DNA of 33,248 bases, from assembly GCA_020847555.1 (NCBI GenBank), contig JADLBT010000288.1:1-33248 (forward strand), written 5' to 3'. The position numbers and the translations under genes are program-made. Below the pieces are notes generated by a model, which ran no database searches, was not told where the DNA came from, and saw nothing but the letters and a program-made list of their open reading frames with translations. Of the stretch, positions 7,554-28,281 are shown in pieces (within the stretch, counting starts at the first letter, position 1; each line of letters starts with the position of its first letter). Origin of the DNA: Gemmataceae bacterium (GTDB lineage: Bacteria; Planctomycetota; Planctomycetia; Gemmatales; Gemmataceae).

Positions 7554-9170
7554 ATGCACGACCACACACAGACCGCCACGATGCCGGGGGCGGCGCCCTC
7601 CGCGCCGCCCGGATCCAGGCCGACCTGGGCGGGGACGACCGCGCTGCGCTGGCTGCTCGGCCGAGCGGTGCCGAACCTGCTCGTCCTGTTCGCGCTGGGC
7701 GCGCTGGCCTACTGGGGCCACAGCACCGGCTGGAAACTGCCGCGTTTCTCGGAGTTGACCGGCGCCGGGGGGATCGGCACGGACGACTGGTGCGGCGAAC
7801 ACGCCGTGCCCGAGACGTTCTGTGTCGAGTGTCGTCCCGGCCTGCTGCCGCGCGGCAAGAGGCACGGATGGTGCAGCATCCACGGCGTCCACGAGTGCCC
7901 GCTGGAACATCCCGACGTCGCCCAGCTGAAGGTCACGCCGCAGGTGACCGCCGCCGACCTGGAGCGAGCCCGGCGTGCGCTCGCGTTCGCTGACCGCCCG
8001 GTCAACAGCAGCCGGTGCAAGTTGCACCTGCGGCGCGTCCAGTTCAGCTCCGACGATGCCGCCACCAAGGCCGGCGTCGAGGTCACCGAGGCGCTGCGCG
8101 GCGCAATCGCCGAGTCGGTGGCCGCCAACGGCGAGATCACCTACGACCCGGTCCGCGTGGCCCCGGTGGCGACGTCCGTGCCGGGCCGCGTCTGGCGCGT
8201 GTACAGGGAACTCGGCGAGCCCGTCAAGAAGGGCGACGTGCTCGCCCTGGTGGACGCGGTCGAGGTGGGCAGGACCAGGGCCGAACTCCTGCAAGCGCTG
8301 TCCCAGGTCGAGCTGCGGCGCAGGACTGTGGCCCGCCTCGCCCCGCTGGCGGACGGAGGCGTGTCGGCCGCGCAACTCCAGGAGGCCCAGGCGGCACTGC
8401 GGGACGCACAGATCCGCGCCGCCGCCGCCCAGCAAGCCCTGGTGAATTTCGGCCTGCCGGTGAAAACTGAGGACGTGCAAAAGCTCACTCCCGAGGACGC
8501 CGCCCGTGCCCTGCCGCTGCTTGGCCTACCCGCCGAGGTCGCCCGCGAACTCGATCCGGCGACGACGACCGCCAACCTGCTGCCGCTGCGGGCGCCGCTC
8601 GACGGGGTCGTCATCGCGCGTCGGGCGGTGGCGGGCGAGTTGGCCGACGCCTCGCGGCCGCTGTTTGTCGTCGCCGATACGGCGCGCATGGTCCTGTCGC
8701 TCGGCGTCCGCCAGGAGGACGCCCACCTCGTCCGTGTCGGTCAGGAGGTCCGTTTCCGCCTCGGCGGCGGGCGCGAGGTGGTTGGGGCCGTGGCCTGGGT
8801 CAGCACCGAGGCGGACGAGAAGACGCGGACGGTTCAGGTCCGCGCCGCGCTGGACAACGCCGACGGCCGGCTGCGGGCGCATACCTTTGGCAGCGGCCGG
8901 ATCGTCCTGCGGCGCGAGGAAGCGGCCGTCCTCGTCCCGAGCGAGGCGGTCCAGTGGGAGGGGGATTGCCACATCGTCTTCGTCCGCGACCGGGATTACC
9001 TCGCACCCGGCGCGCCGAAGGTGTTCCACACGCGCACCGTCCGCCCCGGGGCGACGGAGGCGGGTAGCACCGAGATCATCGCGGGCATTCTGCCGGGCGA
9101 GGTCGTGGTCACGCGCGGCAGCGGATTGATGCGCTCCGAGCTGCTCAAGAACAACCTGGGCGAGGGGTGA
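7554..9170 (+). CDS. czcB: Heavy-metal RND efflux periplasmic adaptor (CzcB/CusB type) with extra Cys/His segment
   Basis: A 538-residue membrane-fusion protein. A strong GAGGAGGAAG precedes the ATG. One membrane segment lies at ~38-55 (AVPNLLVLFALGALAYW). Residues ~78-120 hold a Cys/His segment: W79 C80 x E82 H83 xx P86 E87 xx C90 xx C93, then GWC107, H110, H113 and C115. The remainder is a standard adaptor: beta-barrel/lipoyl start (VAPVATSVPGRVWRVYRELG, GEPVKKGDVLALVDA), an alpha-hairpin (~230-300), a second lipoyl half (LRAPLDGVVIARRAV), and the barrel and membrane-proximal domains. It bridges the inner-membrane pump to an outer-membrane channel. The extra Cys/His segment probably binds metal before handover and is repeated in the lipoprotein at 12677. 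Confidence 0.92.
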   Translation: MHDHTQTATMPGAAPSAPPGSRPTWAGTTALRWLLGRAVPNLLVLFALGALAYWGHSTGWKLPRFSELTGAGGIGTDDWCGEHAVPETFCVECRPGLLPRGKRHGWCSIHGVHECPLEHPDVAQLKVTPQVTAADLERARRALAFADRPVNSSRCKLHLRRVQFSSDDAATKAGVEVTEALRGAIAESVAANGEITYDPVRVAPVATSVPGRVWRVYRELGEPVKKGDVLALVDAVEVGRTRAELLQALSQVELRRRTVARLAPLADGGVSAAQLQEAQAALRDAQIRAAAAQQALVNFGLPVKTEDVQKLTPEDAARALPLLGLPAEVARELDPATTTANLLPLRAPLDGVVIARRAVAGELADASRPLFVVADTARMVLSLGVRQEDAHLVRVGQEVRFRLGGGREVVGAVAWVSTEADEKTRTVQVRAALDNADGRLRAHTFGSGRIVLRREEAAVLVPSEAVQWEGDCHIVFVRDRDYLAPGAPKVFHTRTVRPGATEAGSTEIIAGILPGEVVVTRGSGLMRSELLKNNLGEG

Positions 9171-9245: not shown

Positions 9246-12659
<3,414 letters not shown>

Positions 12660-12676
12660 GTCAAGGAGGTAAACCG

Positions 12677-13033
12677 ATGCGCTCGATCGAACGAAATGCC
12701 CAGTCGCTGCTGGCGCTGTTCGCGGTGCTGGCGCTCTTCGCGGGTGGGTGCGGCAAGGCAGAGGAGCGGCAGCGCCAGGCGCAGAGCAAGACCGAGCCCA
12801 GGGCGGAGAGCAAACATGCCGGGTGGTGGTGCGACGAGCACGGCATCCCGGAGGAGGAGTGCAGCATGTGCAGCCCGAAGCTGGAGAAGGAGTGCAAGGC
12901 GAAGGGCGACTGGTGCGAGAAGCACAACCGGGCGCTGTCGCAGTGCTTCACCTGCAACCCCGAGCGACAAAAGTTCTACGCGGCCAAGTACCGGGCGAAG
13001 TACGGTAAGGAGCCGCCGCCGGTCGGGGAGTAG
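12677..13033 (+). CDS. Small lipoprotein with two WC-x-(E/K)H Cys/His repeats
   Basis: A 118-residue protein behind a near-perfect AAGGAGGT ribosome-binding site, 17 bp after the pump gene. The N-terminus has a hydrophobic stretch ending in the lipobox AGGC, with Cys25 the likely lipidated residue. Two repeats follow: W51 C52 x E54 H55 xx P58 E59 xx C62 xx C65 and W79 C80 x x H83 ... C90 xx C93. The first is nearly the same motif as in the adaptor encoded at 7554. The tail is basic (FYAAKYRAKYGKEPPP). It most likely acts as a membrane-anchored periplasmic metal-binding partner of the pump; that role is inferred from motif and position. Confidence 0.8.
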   Translation: MRSIERNAQSLLALFAVLALFAGGCGKAEERQRQAQSKTEPRAESKHAGWWCDEHGIPEEECSMCSPKLEKECKAKGDWCEKHNRALSQCFTCNPERQKFYAAKYRAKYGKEPPPVGE

Positions 13034-22506: not shown

Positions 22507-23184
22507 CTAGCTCCTGGATTGCAGCGGCGGTAGTTTGCGGAAAAAGTAATTCAGGGCTCGGCGCGCCGACCCGCCGACAGTCTGCACGCCGGTCGAAACG
22601 CCGTCGGTGCCCTGACGGAGCCCCCGAACAGTGGCCTCCAGCGGCTGGGACACCGCCCCGACGCTGGGTAGCGAATCGGTCGAGACGAACTGCAGCGGTA
22701 GCGTCGAGGCCTCGAACACGCCGCCCTGCTCGCGCAACTTGTCGCCGATCCGATCCGCGAGCGCCGCCAGAGCCTGGCGCGCATCCTGGGCTCCTTCGCG
22801 CAGGCTGGGCTCGGCACGACGGTCGGGCTCGGGGGGGCGCACCGAGGCGAGGAAGCCCGGCTCGTCGGGGCCGGGGACCAGCCACGTGTAGCCGGCCAGG
22901 GCCGCCAGGAGCAGGCCGGCGGCCAGCGCCGCGCCCCGCCGCCACTGCCGGCGCAGACGTGCGGCGCGCTCGCGCAGCGCCGCAGCGACGACCTGCGCGG
23001 TTAGCCCCTCGGGAGCCGCTGGCCGGGGCAGGAGCTTTAACCCATCCGTCAGGCGCTGCGCGACGACGTGGCGGTCGCGGCACTCGGAGCACCCGGCCAG
23101 GTGCCGATCCAGCTCGACCCGGTCCGGAAGAAGCTCGCCGTCGAGCAGTCGCTGCAGCAGTTCCTGGCAGTCAAGGCAGCTCAT
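22507..23184 (-). CDS. Zinc-finger anti-sigma factor, membrane-anchored
   Basis: A 225-residue protein. The N-terminus has the ZAS anti-sigma signature: C3, C6, then H28xxxC32xxC35 (DRHLAGCSEC), which coordinates zinc and clamps the cognate ECF sigma factor. A single membrane segment (GAALAAGLLLAALAGYTWLV, ~84-103) separates it from a ~120-residue outer domain with no recognised fold. Its ATG at 23184 lies inside the end of the sigma gene (14-bp overlap), so the two are translationally coupled. It would release the sigma factor in response to a signal across the membrane. Confidence 0.9.
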   Translation of the reverse strand: MSCLDCQELLQRLLDGELLPDRVELDRHLAGCSECRDRHVVAQRLTDGLKLLPRPAAPEGLTAQVVAAALRERAARLRRQWRRGAALAAGLLLAALAGYTWLVPGPDEPGFLASVRPPEPDRRAEPSLREGAQDARQALAALADRIGDKLREQGGVFEASTLPLQFVSTDSLPSVGAVSQPLEATVRGLRQGTDGVSTGVQTVGGSARRALNYFFRKLPPLQSRS

Positions 23185-23728
23185 GCCCCACCTCCGCTAC
23201 CATCCCACGTCGGCGCAGCCGGTCCAGCACTTCCAGCCGGGCTCGGTGCAACCACGTCTTGATCGTCCCTACGGGGCGTTCCAGGGCGGCGGCGATCTCC
23301 TCGTAAGGCTGGCCCTGCTCGTGGAACAGGACGAACACCGTCCGGTACTCCAGGCGCAGGTCCGCGAGCGCGGCCTGGATTTCGGCCGCCAACTCGGCGG
23401 AGTCGTCCGCGGGCTTGTCGGCGGCCGTGTCTTGCAGATAGCCAGCCAGGTCCGGTCGGCGCACGCGCTGGGCCAGCCAGGTTCGGCACCGATTCACGGT
23501 GATGCCGACGACCCACGGTTTGAGCGGTCGGCCCGGATCCCAGCGGCGCAGGCTACGAAAGACGCGCAGGAAGACTTCCTGGGTGACGTCCTCCGCGTCG
23601 TGGCGGTGGTGCAGCAATCGGACGCACAGGCCGAATACCTCCGGCTGGAAGCGCTCGACCAGGGTGCGGATCGCCTCGGCGTCACTCCGCAGACAGCGGC
23701 GAACCAATGCGGCATCGTCACCCGACAC
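23171..23728 (-). CDS. ECF RNA polymerase sigma factor
   Basis: A 185-residue sigma-70 family ECF factor. Region 2 includes DAEDVTQEVFLRVFRSLRRW (core binding and -10 melting), and region 4 has the helix-turn-helix YEEIAAALERPVGTIKTWLH (-35 recognition). Region 3 and the N-terminal extension are absent, as is normal for ECFs. The next gene, overlapping by 14 bp, encodes the ZAS anti-sigma factor. Such pairs usually autoregulate, but no candidate promoter motif could be set out in the 106-bp upstream gap. Confidence 0.95.
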   Translation of the reverse strand: MSGDDAALVRRCLRSDAEAIRTLVERFQPEVFGLCVRLLHHRHDAEDVTQEVFLRVFRSLRRWDPGRPLKPWVVGITVNRCRTWLAQRVRRPDLAGYLQDTAADKPADDSAELAAEIQAALADLRLEYRTVFVLFHEQGQPYEEIAAALERPVGTIKTWLHRARLEVLDRLRRRGMVAEVGHELP

Positions 23729-24269: not shown

Positions 24270-24893
24270 TTACGACTCCTCACGCTTCGATTCGCGGTGG
24301 ACGGGAGGGGGCTTCAGGACGTTGGTCCGGAGTTTCTTGCGGGCCCGCGACAGGACCGGCCCGATGCTGTTGACCGGCACGTTCAGCTCGGTGGCGATTT
24401 CCTCGTAAGTACGGCCCTCCAGGTAGTACAACCGCACGACCTGGCGCTCGCGTGCCGGCAGCTTCTTCAACAGCCGGGCCACCTCCTCCAGCGTCTCCAG
24501 ACCGACCCCCGCCTGCGGCGGACCTTCCGGCTCGGCCTCGATGGACGACAGTTGGCCGTCGTCGGTACGCAGCTGGACCTCGCGGGCCGTCGCCCGCTGC
24601 GCCAGTTCCTGCACGCAGATGCGCCGCGCGATGACCGTCAGATACGTCCCCAGGCTACTCTTGCCGCGGAACTGCCGCAGCACCGCGTAGTCCTTCGCCA
24701 CGATTTGCAGCAGGATTTCGGACGCCAGGTCTTCCGTGTCCTCGGGGCGCAACGGGACGCTGCGGAGGTGGGCGGTGTGGTGGATGACGTGGTAGATCAG
24801 GCCGAGGTGGTGATCGATGAAGTCATTCCAGGCTCCCGGTTCGTGGTGCAGGCAGCGCTGGAGTAGATCGCGATCTTGGGGAGTCAGTGCCAC
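24270..24893 (-). CDS. ECF-type RNA polymerase sigma factor, without linked anti-sigma
   Basis: A 207-residue ECF factor distinct from the one at 23171. Region 2 is represented by DTEDLASEILLQIVAKDY and FRGKSSLGTYLTVIARRIC, and region 4 by LPARERQVVRLYYLEGRTYE and IATELNVPVNSIGPVLSRAR. It has a longer linker (~115-140) and a basic tail (HRESKREES). Translation starts at a GTG (24893) with GAGGA about 10 bases upstream. No anti-sigma gene adjoins it, so control must lie elsewhere (for example a Ser/Thr kinase or C-terminal tail). Confidence 0.92.
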   Translation of the reverse strand: MALTPQDRDLLQRCLHHEPGAWNDFIDHHLGLIYHVIHHTAHLRSVPLRPEDTEDLASEILLQIVAKDYAVLRQFRGKSSLGTYLTVIARRICVQELAQRATAREVQLRTDDGQLSSIEAEPEGPPQAGVGLETLEEVARLLKKLPARERQVVRLYYLEGRTYEEIATELNVPVNSIGPVLSRARKKLRTNVLKPPPVHRESKREES

Positions 24894-25096: not shown

Positions 25097-25127
25097 GCCC
25101 AGCTGCGGCGAGTGGCAGTGGGGAGAA

Positions 25128-25198
25128 AAAGCCCACGGGCGGCGTCCCGTGGGTGAAGTCGCCAGCGCTTCGCCCACGGGACGCCACCCGTGGGCTTT
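25128..25198. repeat. Nested double palindrome, type B related
   Basis: Arms of 31 nt at 25128-25158 and 25168-25198 with two differences and a 9-nt loop. Each arm is itself palindromic (CCCACGGG ... CCCGTGGG), so the element carries four copies of one 8-mer and could form a cruciform with alternative foldings. The outer AAAGCCCACGG/CCGTGGGCTTT matches the elements at 20619 and 28250. It lies 51 bases after the stop of the Trx/PDZ gene. Confidence 0.85.
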
Positions 25199-25248
25199 CC
25201 CGCCGCCTCTCCTCACTCCGCACTTGCCCCAGATGGGCTGGCTGCGGG

Positions 25249-26490
25249 TCACGGCTCCAGGGTCATGAGCAGATCCATCCGCTTGCCGTCGCGCAGGATG
25301 TTCAGCGTGACGCGGTCCCCGACCACATAGTTGTGCTGGATGTACCGAGCGAACCCATCCACGCCCATCGCCAGTTTCCGGCCATCGACGTCCAGGATGA
25401 TATCGCCGCCGCGTACCCCGGCCTTGCGGGCCTGGGTCGTGACGAGCTGCTTTTGCCGGAACGCGAGCTGGGTGGGGGACAGCCCCAGCGCCTTCCGCTC
25501 CTGCGGCCCGAGGTCGAAGCCGTCGAGGCGCCCGTAGGGGACCAGTTCCCGCAGCGATGCCCGCCACGAAATATCACTTTTCCGCCACCCGGCCGGTAGC
25601 TGTACCTTGCCGGTCCGGATCTGACCGTCGCGCTGCCAGACGACGTCGAGTTCGGTCGCCTTCATCGCCCTGTCCAGGGCGAACGTCGCGTCGGCGAGGG
25701 AGTGGATGGGCACGTTGTCGATTCGGCGCACCACATCCCCGGCCCAGAGGCCGCTGGCCGCGGCAGGGGAGCCATCCTTGACCGCCTTGACGATGTTGCC
25801 GCGGTCCACGTCCAGCTCGAACCCAAGGTTGTCAGGCAACGGGTAGCGGTGGATCAGATCCCTGCTCCAGGTGCCCGCACGCTTCAGGGCAGAGTGCTGG
25901 ATCTCTTTTACCTGGTGACAGTGGAGACAGCCGCGCCCGCCCCTGGGACCGAAGCCGAACCTGCTGCGGGCGAACTTCGGACCCTCCGCGGAGCGGGGCG
26001 CGAAGGTCTTGTCTGCGCTTCGATGCATCTCCAGGACCGACTGCATGGTGTAGCGCAGCCCCGGCAGCGACTGGCGCCGGTCGGCGTCGATCCCGTCCCG
26101 CGCGCCGTAGCGCGCGTACACCTTCCCGCCCGCGTCCAGGAAGAAGACCACGAGCGTCAGGTCGTAGTCGAACTCGAACAGATTCAGATCCTGCGTGTCG
26201 ATGCGCGTCAGCCGGACCCGGACGAACTGGTCGGCAATGTCCCTGAAACCTTCGAGACGGACAACCTGCCCGTCAAATTCGCGGCAGTCAATTCACGGAA
26301 CGCACCGCACCATCACCATGAGCGGTTTGCCGGTTACGCGCGCTCGCGCTTTGCCGTCCTCCAGACCGGGGAGCCACCCGTACCGGGCCGCCGGGTCGCC
26401 CCCCCTCGGCCCGCGGAATTGTGCCCTCCCCTCCCCCACAGCCAGTGCCACCCAACCCAGCGCGACGACCGTAACAAACCGACCCGTCAT
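25249..26490 (-). CDS. Trx-like/CxxCH/PDZ-PDZ protein, probable selenoprotein (in-frame TGA = Sec66)
   Basis: Read as one frame this encodes 413 residues starting MTGRFVTVVALGWVALAVGEG, a signal peptide, behind GGAGGACG at the right spacing. A single TGA at 26295-26293 falls at residue 66 in RCVP-U-IDC. The thioredoxin-like family normally has CxxC there, so TGA stands for its first Cys and C69 is kept. Both sides continue the same fold (GKPLMVMV before; LNLFEFDYDLTLVVFFLDAGG after). A CLHCH motif (C188, C191, H192) follows, then two PDZ domains (~215-290 with GSPAAASGLWAGDVV; ~330-410 with AGVRGGDIILDVDG). I recall this architecture from planctomycetes as a Trx7/PDZ (seleno)protein family. 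It acts outside the cytoplasm, presumably in redox or maturation chemistry. The alternative is a nonsense-mutated gene. Confidence 0.8.
26239..26287 (-). promoter_or_regulatory. Candidate bacterial SECIS stem-loops downstream of the TGA
   Basis: Two foldings are visible in the mRNA just after the TGA. One pairs CUGCC (26287-26283) with GGCAG around a 12-nt loop. The other pairs GUCC, CU and GAA with UUC, AG and GGAC (26262-26239), with small bulges and a GGU apical loop about 42 nt after the TGA. Bacterial SECIS elements carry a conserved GU in an apical loop, usually somewhat closer. Drawn by eye, no energies computed. Confidence 0.35.
26293..26295 (-). other. In-frame TGA, candidate selenocysteine codon
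   Basis: Upstream codons GTG CGG TGC GTT CCG precede the TGA, and downstream codons ATT GAC TGC keep the second redox Cys. No other stop occurs in this frame between 26490 and 25249. Confidence 0.75.
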
Positions 26491-26704
26491 GAAACGTCCT
26501 CCGGAGGGCGATGGTTGCTTCCCATGATATTGAACCCCCGGATCGTGACGGAGTCGCGGCAGGAGGGACGCCCGCTCCCCTCCGCTGCCGAAATCTCCTC
26601 TATCAACGAAACGACCGATTCCGTATAGTGTTCTCAAATTGTCCCACCCCTACCGCCCGCGCCGTCCGGTCAGAGCGCCGGGCCTCGGAGGATGCCGCAC
26701 CACG

Positions 26705-28249: not shown

Positions 28250-28281
28250 TAAAGCCCACGGACCGCGGCCCGTGGGCTTTA
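28250..28281. terminator. Bidirectional terminator-like palindrome, type B
   Basis: Perfect 12-bp arms TAAAGCCCACGG (28250-28261) and CCGTGGGCTTTA (28270-28281) with an 8-nt loop. It sits 15 bp after the small membrane-protein gene and 24 bp before the end of the convergent YdjM-like gene. The T/A runs at both bases suit termination in both directions, though they are short. Confidence 0.75.

Follow-up and report, generated by a model that had tools for sequence, protein, structure and literature searches.

Does the TGA codon at 26295-26293 end a gene, or is it read as selenocysteine (Sec) within a longer one? The codon lies in a minus-strand frame that runs from 26490 to 25249 of the window, by which we mean the whole stretch of 33,248 nucleotides that was analyzed. 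It is the only internal stop of that frame. Judged by the sequence comparisons described below, the stop-split gene almost certainly encodes one exported redox protein that contains Sec.

Reading frame and family assignment

Read through the TGA, the gene (25249 to 26490, minus strand) starts with ATG and specifies 413 residues, followed by a terminal TGA at 25251-25249. The original prediction had described this frame as broken at codon 66 alone, and the sequence confirmed it. A Shine-Dalgarno-like GGAGG was read from the sequence 7 nt upstream of the ATG (26498 to 26502, minus strand). Residues 1 to 24 (26419 to 26490) form a probable signal peptide, recognized by eye as a hydrophobic stretch behind an arginine. 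The in-frame TGA stands in the context ...MVMVRCVPUIDCREFDGQV..., with MVRC63VPU66IDC69REFD as the key residues. Under the ordinary code (table 11), one open reading frame stops at this codon and a second one, of 300 amino acids, occupies 26151 to 25249.

The read-through protein scored 410.4 bits (cut-off, 300) with the NCBIfam model NF041199, Trx7/PDZ domain-containing (seleno)protein. The match extended from residue 38 to residue 410, corresponding to model positions 2 to 389 of 390, and spanned the TGA. In Pfam, a Thioredoxin_7 domain at residues 39 to 120 (26131 to 26376, minus strand) runs across the codon and is followed by two PDZ stretches, which is the order expected of NF041199. PDZ1 covers residues 222 to 298 (25597 to 25827, minus strand; PF13180; matches covering about 210 to 307 of the predicted model are HtrA-family PDZ regions), and PDZ2 covers residues 350 to 411 approximately (25258 to 25443, minus strand). 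A thioredoxin-like fold on both sides of the codon, and a Trx7/PDZ (seleno)protein family with this layout in planctomycetes, had been put forward in the original prediction. Both were borne out, and the relatives analyzed here come from planctomycete genomes.

A database search for homologues yielded 658 matches from 7,999 candidates scored, 120 of which were listed. All but one of these 120 were 300 to 353 amino acids long and covered at most 84% of the query. The exception was P0005, the sole full-length protein among the matches listed, with 408 amino acids, 56% identity, and Cys at the TGA site. A near-identical match, P0002 (99% identity), is stored as a 300-amino-acid piece that begins at the late GTG, exactly the PDZ protein that a gene caller had been expected to report. 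The suspicion that the family might be known and this instance misannotated was well founded: the family is catalogued, and this near-identical protein is stored without its redox half. Read through the TGA, a protein that databases store shortened or name as a serine protease regains its redox centre.

TGA and cysteine alternate in the active site

The family set was built from 15 loci on genome contigs and then from further genomes reached through these. Together with the window, 226 sequences entered the comparison. Of these, 209 (including the window) were distinct; L041, which matched in the PDZ part only, had been left out beforehand. The set is a partial sample: it includes four sub-cut-off fragments (L114 to L117) from the taxonomic family of relative G001 and omits 23 listed rows over the cut-off (13 of them stop-free) as well as the listed sub-cut-off rows of the phylum search. 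The gene family was present in 61 of the 95 genomes of G001's taxonomic family. At the level of its phylum, it was present in 123 of 392 genomes (110 over the cut-off), with at most four candidates scored per genome.

Codon 66 (26293 to 26295, minus strand) was TGA in 147 of the 209 distinct sequences and Cys in 62, and nothing else was found there. An alignment of homologues, proposed as a check together with the original prediction, therefore revealed no unrelated residue at this site. Position 63 (TGC in the window, 26302 to 26304, minus strand) was equally restricted, with 150 Cys, 59 Sec encoded by TGA, and no other residue. Position 69 (TGC, 26284 to 26286, minus strand) was Cys in 189 sequences and lacked it in 20. 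Written as residues 63/66/69, the combinations were CUC (78 sequences), CCC (61), UUC (50), CUE (5), UUA (3), UUS (2), and CUG (2), with CUH, CUD, CUN, UU-gap, UUP, UUF, UUG, and CCL occurring once each. Sec63 combined with Cys66 was not seen among the 209.

The 59 UxxU sequences, examples of which are L119, L122, L125, L147, L154, L162, and L195, carry in-frame TGAs at both position 63 and position 66, spaced by nine bases, and one downstream hairpin. Both active-site residues are Sec in these 59 of the 147 Sec-type sequences. Two UxxU relatives, L114 and L115, end after PDZ1, the frame examined containing no further PDZ domain, and retain the CxxCH segment discussed below.

A FastTree phylogeny was computed with columns 63, 66, and 69 removed (91 of its 206 inner branches starred, 65 open). 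It implied 4 changes between Cys and Sec at position 66 and 19 at position 63 within the Sec66 forms; starred branches alone forced 13 changes for the UxxU group. On this tree, position 66 is stable and position 63 switches repeatedly. The window sits in a starred clade of 22 rows, all CxxU. That position 63 is always Cys or Sec, with at least 19 exchanges between them, suggests that a chalcogen is needed there for catalysis. As far as sequence can tell, the motif is best written Cys63-x-x-Sec66-x-x-Cys69, and the window protein is the predicted single-Sec form. With CxxC, CxxU, and UxxU centres on one scaffold, the family amounts to a natural experiment in which the benefit of a first and a second Sec could be measured.

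A conserved hairpin downstream of the TGA

Beginning 18 nt past the TGA, the window contains the bSECIS-type hairpin GACGGGC-AGGTT-GTCCGTC (26256 to 26274, minus strand). With the A-U pair of the loop open, it has a 7-bp stem and an AGGUU loop 25 nt after the UGA; with this pair closed, it has an 8-bp stem and a GGU loop 26 nt after the UGA (MFE, -12.5). It satisfies the published core rules for bacterial SECIS elements, taken here from section 5 of PMC13188914 and combined with an MFE at or below -7.5. Core rules and MFE were passed by 86 of 88 CxxU and 57 of 59 UxxU forms, but the bare rules are not specific, since 17 of 62 CxxC forms passed as well. Folded as a single sequence, the window was unremarkable (z, -1.75; 14 of 200 shuffles equally good). 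RNAalifold recovered, unaided, four pairs of the stem with a consensus of only -2.91 kcal/mol, and Rfam gave two chance-level matches and no SECIS at the site. The case for the hairpin rests on covariation and on the Cys-type control, not on single-sequence folding.

Covariation was assessed in the first set, from which 67 distinct TGA-type loci were used (68 minus L115, which has a 3-nt deletion), giving 64 distinct rows. The stem examined was GACGGGC/GUCCGUC, which encloses the loop AGGUU and begins 18 nt past the TGA. Pairing was found in 95.8% of 448 cells, a level reached by none of 500 shuffles, and fell to 31 to 62% when the register was slid. Three pairs were altered on both sides, a number reached by 2 of 500 shuffles, and the covariation score was 0.262 compared with 0.143 after shuffling (0 of 500 as high). 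In Cys-type relatives (34 loci, 33 distinct), only 14.3% of the same stem columns were paired.

The same division held across the whole family. At least five of the seven pairs, in fixed register, were present in 79 of 88 CxxU and 56 of 59 UxxU forms (135 of 147 Sec forms), compared with 0 of 62 CxxC forms. Among the 12 Sec forms below this level, visual inspection showed in nine a hairpin that is shifted by one base and has a loop of 4 nt, and L115 has its hairpin 3 nt closer. Synonymous recoding lowered the mean stem score from 18.6 to 11.0 for CxxU and from 18.3 to 11.1 for UxxU, whereas that of the Cys forms stayed at 8.6. Scores above 95% of a sequence's own recodings were obtained for 61 of 88 CxxU, 40 of 59 UxxU, and 3 of 62 CxxC forms. 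On average, the hairpin of Sec forms therefore appears to be maintained beyond protein-coding demand. By arithmetic, the loop of UxxU forms would follow the two UGAs at distances of 34 and 25 nt, which fall within the published range of 16 to 37 nt. If one hairpin does decode two UGAs nine bases apart, these genes would test the reach of the bacterial SECIS element.

Selenocysteine machinery in related genomes

The 13 genomes behind the first fetched loci, all of them relatives, were searched for Sec genes alongside 14 control genomes. Matches over the cut-off were obtained for tRNA-Sec in 13 of 13 (and also in 5 of 14 controls), for selA in 13 of 13 (1 of 14 controls, namely E. coli), and for selB and selD in 12 of 13 each (2 of 14 controls each). 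An in-frame TGA was present in 6 of the 14 selD matches of the relatives, so several of these genomes probably encode a SelD that itself contains Sec. Passages of an earlier study report Sec-insertion genes in other planctomycetes, including Gemmata obscuriglobus (PMC4807772).

In G001's taxonomic family, selA was found in 85 of 95 genomes, compared with 61 of 95 for the Trx7/PDZ gene. As selA is nearly everywhere in this family, co-occurrence is uninformative there, and a phylum sample, comprising 80 of the 109 phylum genomes listed, was used instead. In this sample, selA passed the cut-off in 40 of the 43 genomes that have TGA forms, compared with 10 of the 37 classed as having stop-free forms only, a label that may be wrong for some genomes because at most four candidates were scored per genome and stop-free genes were partly fetched. 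The association was strong (Fisher P of 8e-10, with kinship ignored). Two of the ten stop-free genomes, G219 and G437, were barely over the selA cut-off. The TGA-form genomes below it were G180, G262, and G274, the last represented by a contig-end fragment of 263.5 bits.

Surroundings of the gene

None of nine open reading frames of the window was found around five relatives (tblastn, 1e-5; stretches of 6.7 to 10.6 kb). The gene is followed by a long inverted repeat (25104 to 25222) built on CCCACGGG..CCCGTGGG, within which a terminator-like stem-loop with a T-run (25132 to 25153, minus strand) was recognized as a consensus match only. A third related palindrome lies at 28255 to 28276; the three places give 6 hits counting both strands, compared with 0.1 expected. 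Two genes for sigma-70-type (ECF-like) sigma factors are located nearby, at 22507 to 23728 and at 24270 to 24893. One of them adjoins a gene for a zf-HC2 anti-sigma-like protein. The sigma factor genes were not found beside the five relatives. Farther away, a large RND-like pump gene (9246 to 12659) lies between a gene for what seems to be an efflux adaptor (7554 to 9170) and one for a small protein rich in Cys (12656 to 13033); the two proteins share a WC..H...PE..C..C-like motif in the open reading frame translations.

Alternative explanations

Under the ordinary code, the frame does end at the TGA, and the near-identical P0002 is stored as a 300-amino-acid piece. The codon might accordingly be a genuine stop or the result of decay, leaving either a pseudogene or a secreted stub of 65 residues next to a 300-residue PDZ protein. 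Against this, the same TGA recurs in most of the distinct family sequences with Cys in the rest, the thioredoxin domain is intact on both sides, and the downstream hairpin is preserved by compensatory changes, on average beyond protein demand. We regard this explanation as very improbable. A sequencing or assembly error that hides a TGC or TGT is hardly credible either. The window does represent a single assembly, and P0005 has Cys at this place. However, the window's entire clade has TGA, its hairpin is perfect where no Cys form keeps even five of seven pairs, and P0002 begins at the same late GTG, as would be expected if it too contained the TGA. Both explanations were rejected on the strength of the recurrent TGA, the conserved hairpin, and the all-TGA clade. 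The curated family model, the exchange of TGA and Cys, the covarying hairpin that Cys forms do not keep, and the Sec machinery of relatives argue together for the selenoprotein.

Within a selenoprotein, Sec66 and Cys69 (UxxC) could be the working pair, with Cys63 in a structural role. This pairing agrees with ungapped alignments to TXNDC12 (E of 9e-05) and DsbD (E of 0.05 to 0.2), in which U66 and C69 fall on both Cys of the CxxC and U66 takes the place of the leading Cys in CGAC and CVAC, as well as with the frequency of Cys69. It is nevertheless unlikely: some Sec forms replace Cys69 with E, A, G, S, H, D, P, F, or N, whereas position 63 holds Cys or Sec throughout and, among Sec66 forms, needs at least 19 switches between them on the tree (13 for the UxxU group from starred branches alone). 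Of the UxxC centre put forward in the original prediction, the placement of Sec at the first thioredoxin Cys stood; the motif was incomplete, as Cys63, three residues before the Sec, is the partner that is exchanged for nothing but Sec and the published motif is CxxU. The resemblance of CVPU to CGPC would put residue 63 in the first-Cys place of a thioredoxin CxxC; this reading was dropped, because the PDB alignments put U66 there. A further choice concerns CLHCH at residues 188 to 192 (25915 to 25929, minus strand), between the thioredoxin domain and PDZ1, a CxxCH segment that may be a site for c-type haem. It could equally well bind no haem and serve as a metal site or as a further Cys pair by which the Sec-Cys centre is reduced; we give the two even odds. 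CxxCH is exact in all 209 distinct family sequences, and the protein probably carries an export signal; a family of cytochrome c assembly proteins is found in 13 of 13 relative genomes (8 of 14 controls); and haem motifs beside PDZ domains are familiar from MamP and MamE. On the other side, CxHCH with His190 is kept in 208 of 209 sequences, which is more specific than haem attachment requires, and Pfam identified no domain in this linker even at an E of 10, a search that short segments can escape. His156 is kept in 180 of 209, and the family sequences have no conserved distal Met.

Proposed mechanism

We place the probability that the gene encodes one exported Trx7/PDZ (NF041199) selenoprotein, acting as follows, at about 0.88. 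SelB and Sec-tRNA would bind the hairpin, UGA66 would be decoded as Sec, and the finished protein would be exported. Sec66, which aligns with the first Cys of a DsbD-type CxxC, would provide the attacking selenol. Cys63 would be the partner that it requires, joined to it as a selenenylsulfide, and the thiol of Cys69 would play an auxiliary part. C-terminal peptides or partner proteins would be held by the two PDZ domains. The CxxCH segment may carry a c-type haem that donates electrons to the Sec-Cys centre or accepts them from it; if it holds haem, a single chain would connect selenium chemistry with the flow of electrons through cytochromes. The task of the protein is most likely thiol-disulfide or peroxide chemistry on PDZ-bound clients in the cell envelope. 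More tentatively, and with considerable doubt on our part, the family might form a planctomycete envelope relay in one chain, in which a Sec-Cys or Sec-Sec thioredoxin centre is wired to c-type haem and presented to clients by the two PDZ domains, and one hairpin would decode both UGAs of the UxxU forms.

Comparison with known systems

The predicted structure of the window protein (pLDDT, 91.2; pTM, 0.88; residues 1 to 29 below a pLDDT of 50) has a helix at residues 70 to 77 that follows the CxxC-type centre. The stretch from residue 66 to residue 142 lacks proline and with it the cis-Pro loop that is usual in thioredoxins. In this it differs from the C-terminal domain of DsbD and from TXNDC12/AGR-type folds, and it further departs from them by Cys63 three residues before the Sec and by its fused PDZ domains.

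Both PDZ domains resemble, in sequence and fold, those of HtrA/Do-type proteases (DegQ, AlgW, and MucD). A trypsin-like protease domain was not matched in Pfam at E values up to 1, and the Do model gave 66.6 bits compared with a cut-off of 416.2, its best stretch lying on PDZ residues 224 to 300. Identity as a serine protease was therefore rejected, and entries named, for example, "serine protease Do" in databases are misleading. MamP and MamE combine PDZ domains with CxxCH magnetochrome haem segments. Their match to the window protein is only about one PDZ domain long, and their models scored far below the cut-offs (49.7 of 800 bits for MamE and 32.6 of 300 bits for MamP). Neither of them is known to have a thioredoxin domain or Sec.

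A 2026 review (PMC13188914), in the passages available, lists NF041199 with motif CxxU and one Sec and cites Zhang and Gladyshev (2008; PMC2398784, reference 61 of the review). In their analysis of the Global Ocean Sampling data, these authors described a "putative secreted serine protease MucD" with CxxU from 2 Sec and 12 Cys sequences; the term PDZ does not occur in the main text as available. From the review's citation, we infer that this MucD family is the same as NF041199. A passage of PMC9312934 names a "PDZ domain-containing protein, pfam13899, CxxU," and the main text of the deep-Sep paper (PMC12013277) contained none of the family terms. The available passages of PMC13188914 and PMC2398784 make no mention of UxxU or of CxxCH in this family, and UxxU in Trx7/PDZ proteins seems to be unpublished within the literature searched and the passages of the papers cited. 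The window gene is like the NF041199 family in domain order, Sec site, CxxU motif, and curated score. Whereas the review, in those passages, gives that family one Sec and CxxU only, 59 of the 209 sequences compared here, the window not among them, are UxxU, and CxxCH is present in every one. The window gene is thus a further member of a catalogued family, to which the present comparison adds two-Sec relatives, a constant CxxCH, and a refined motif.
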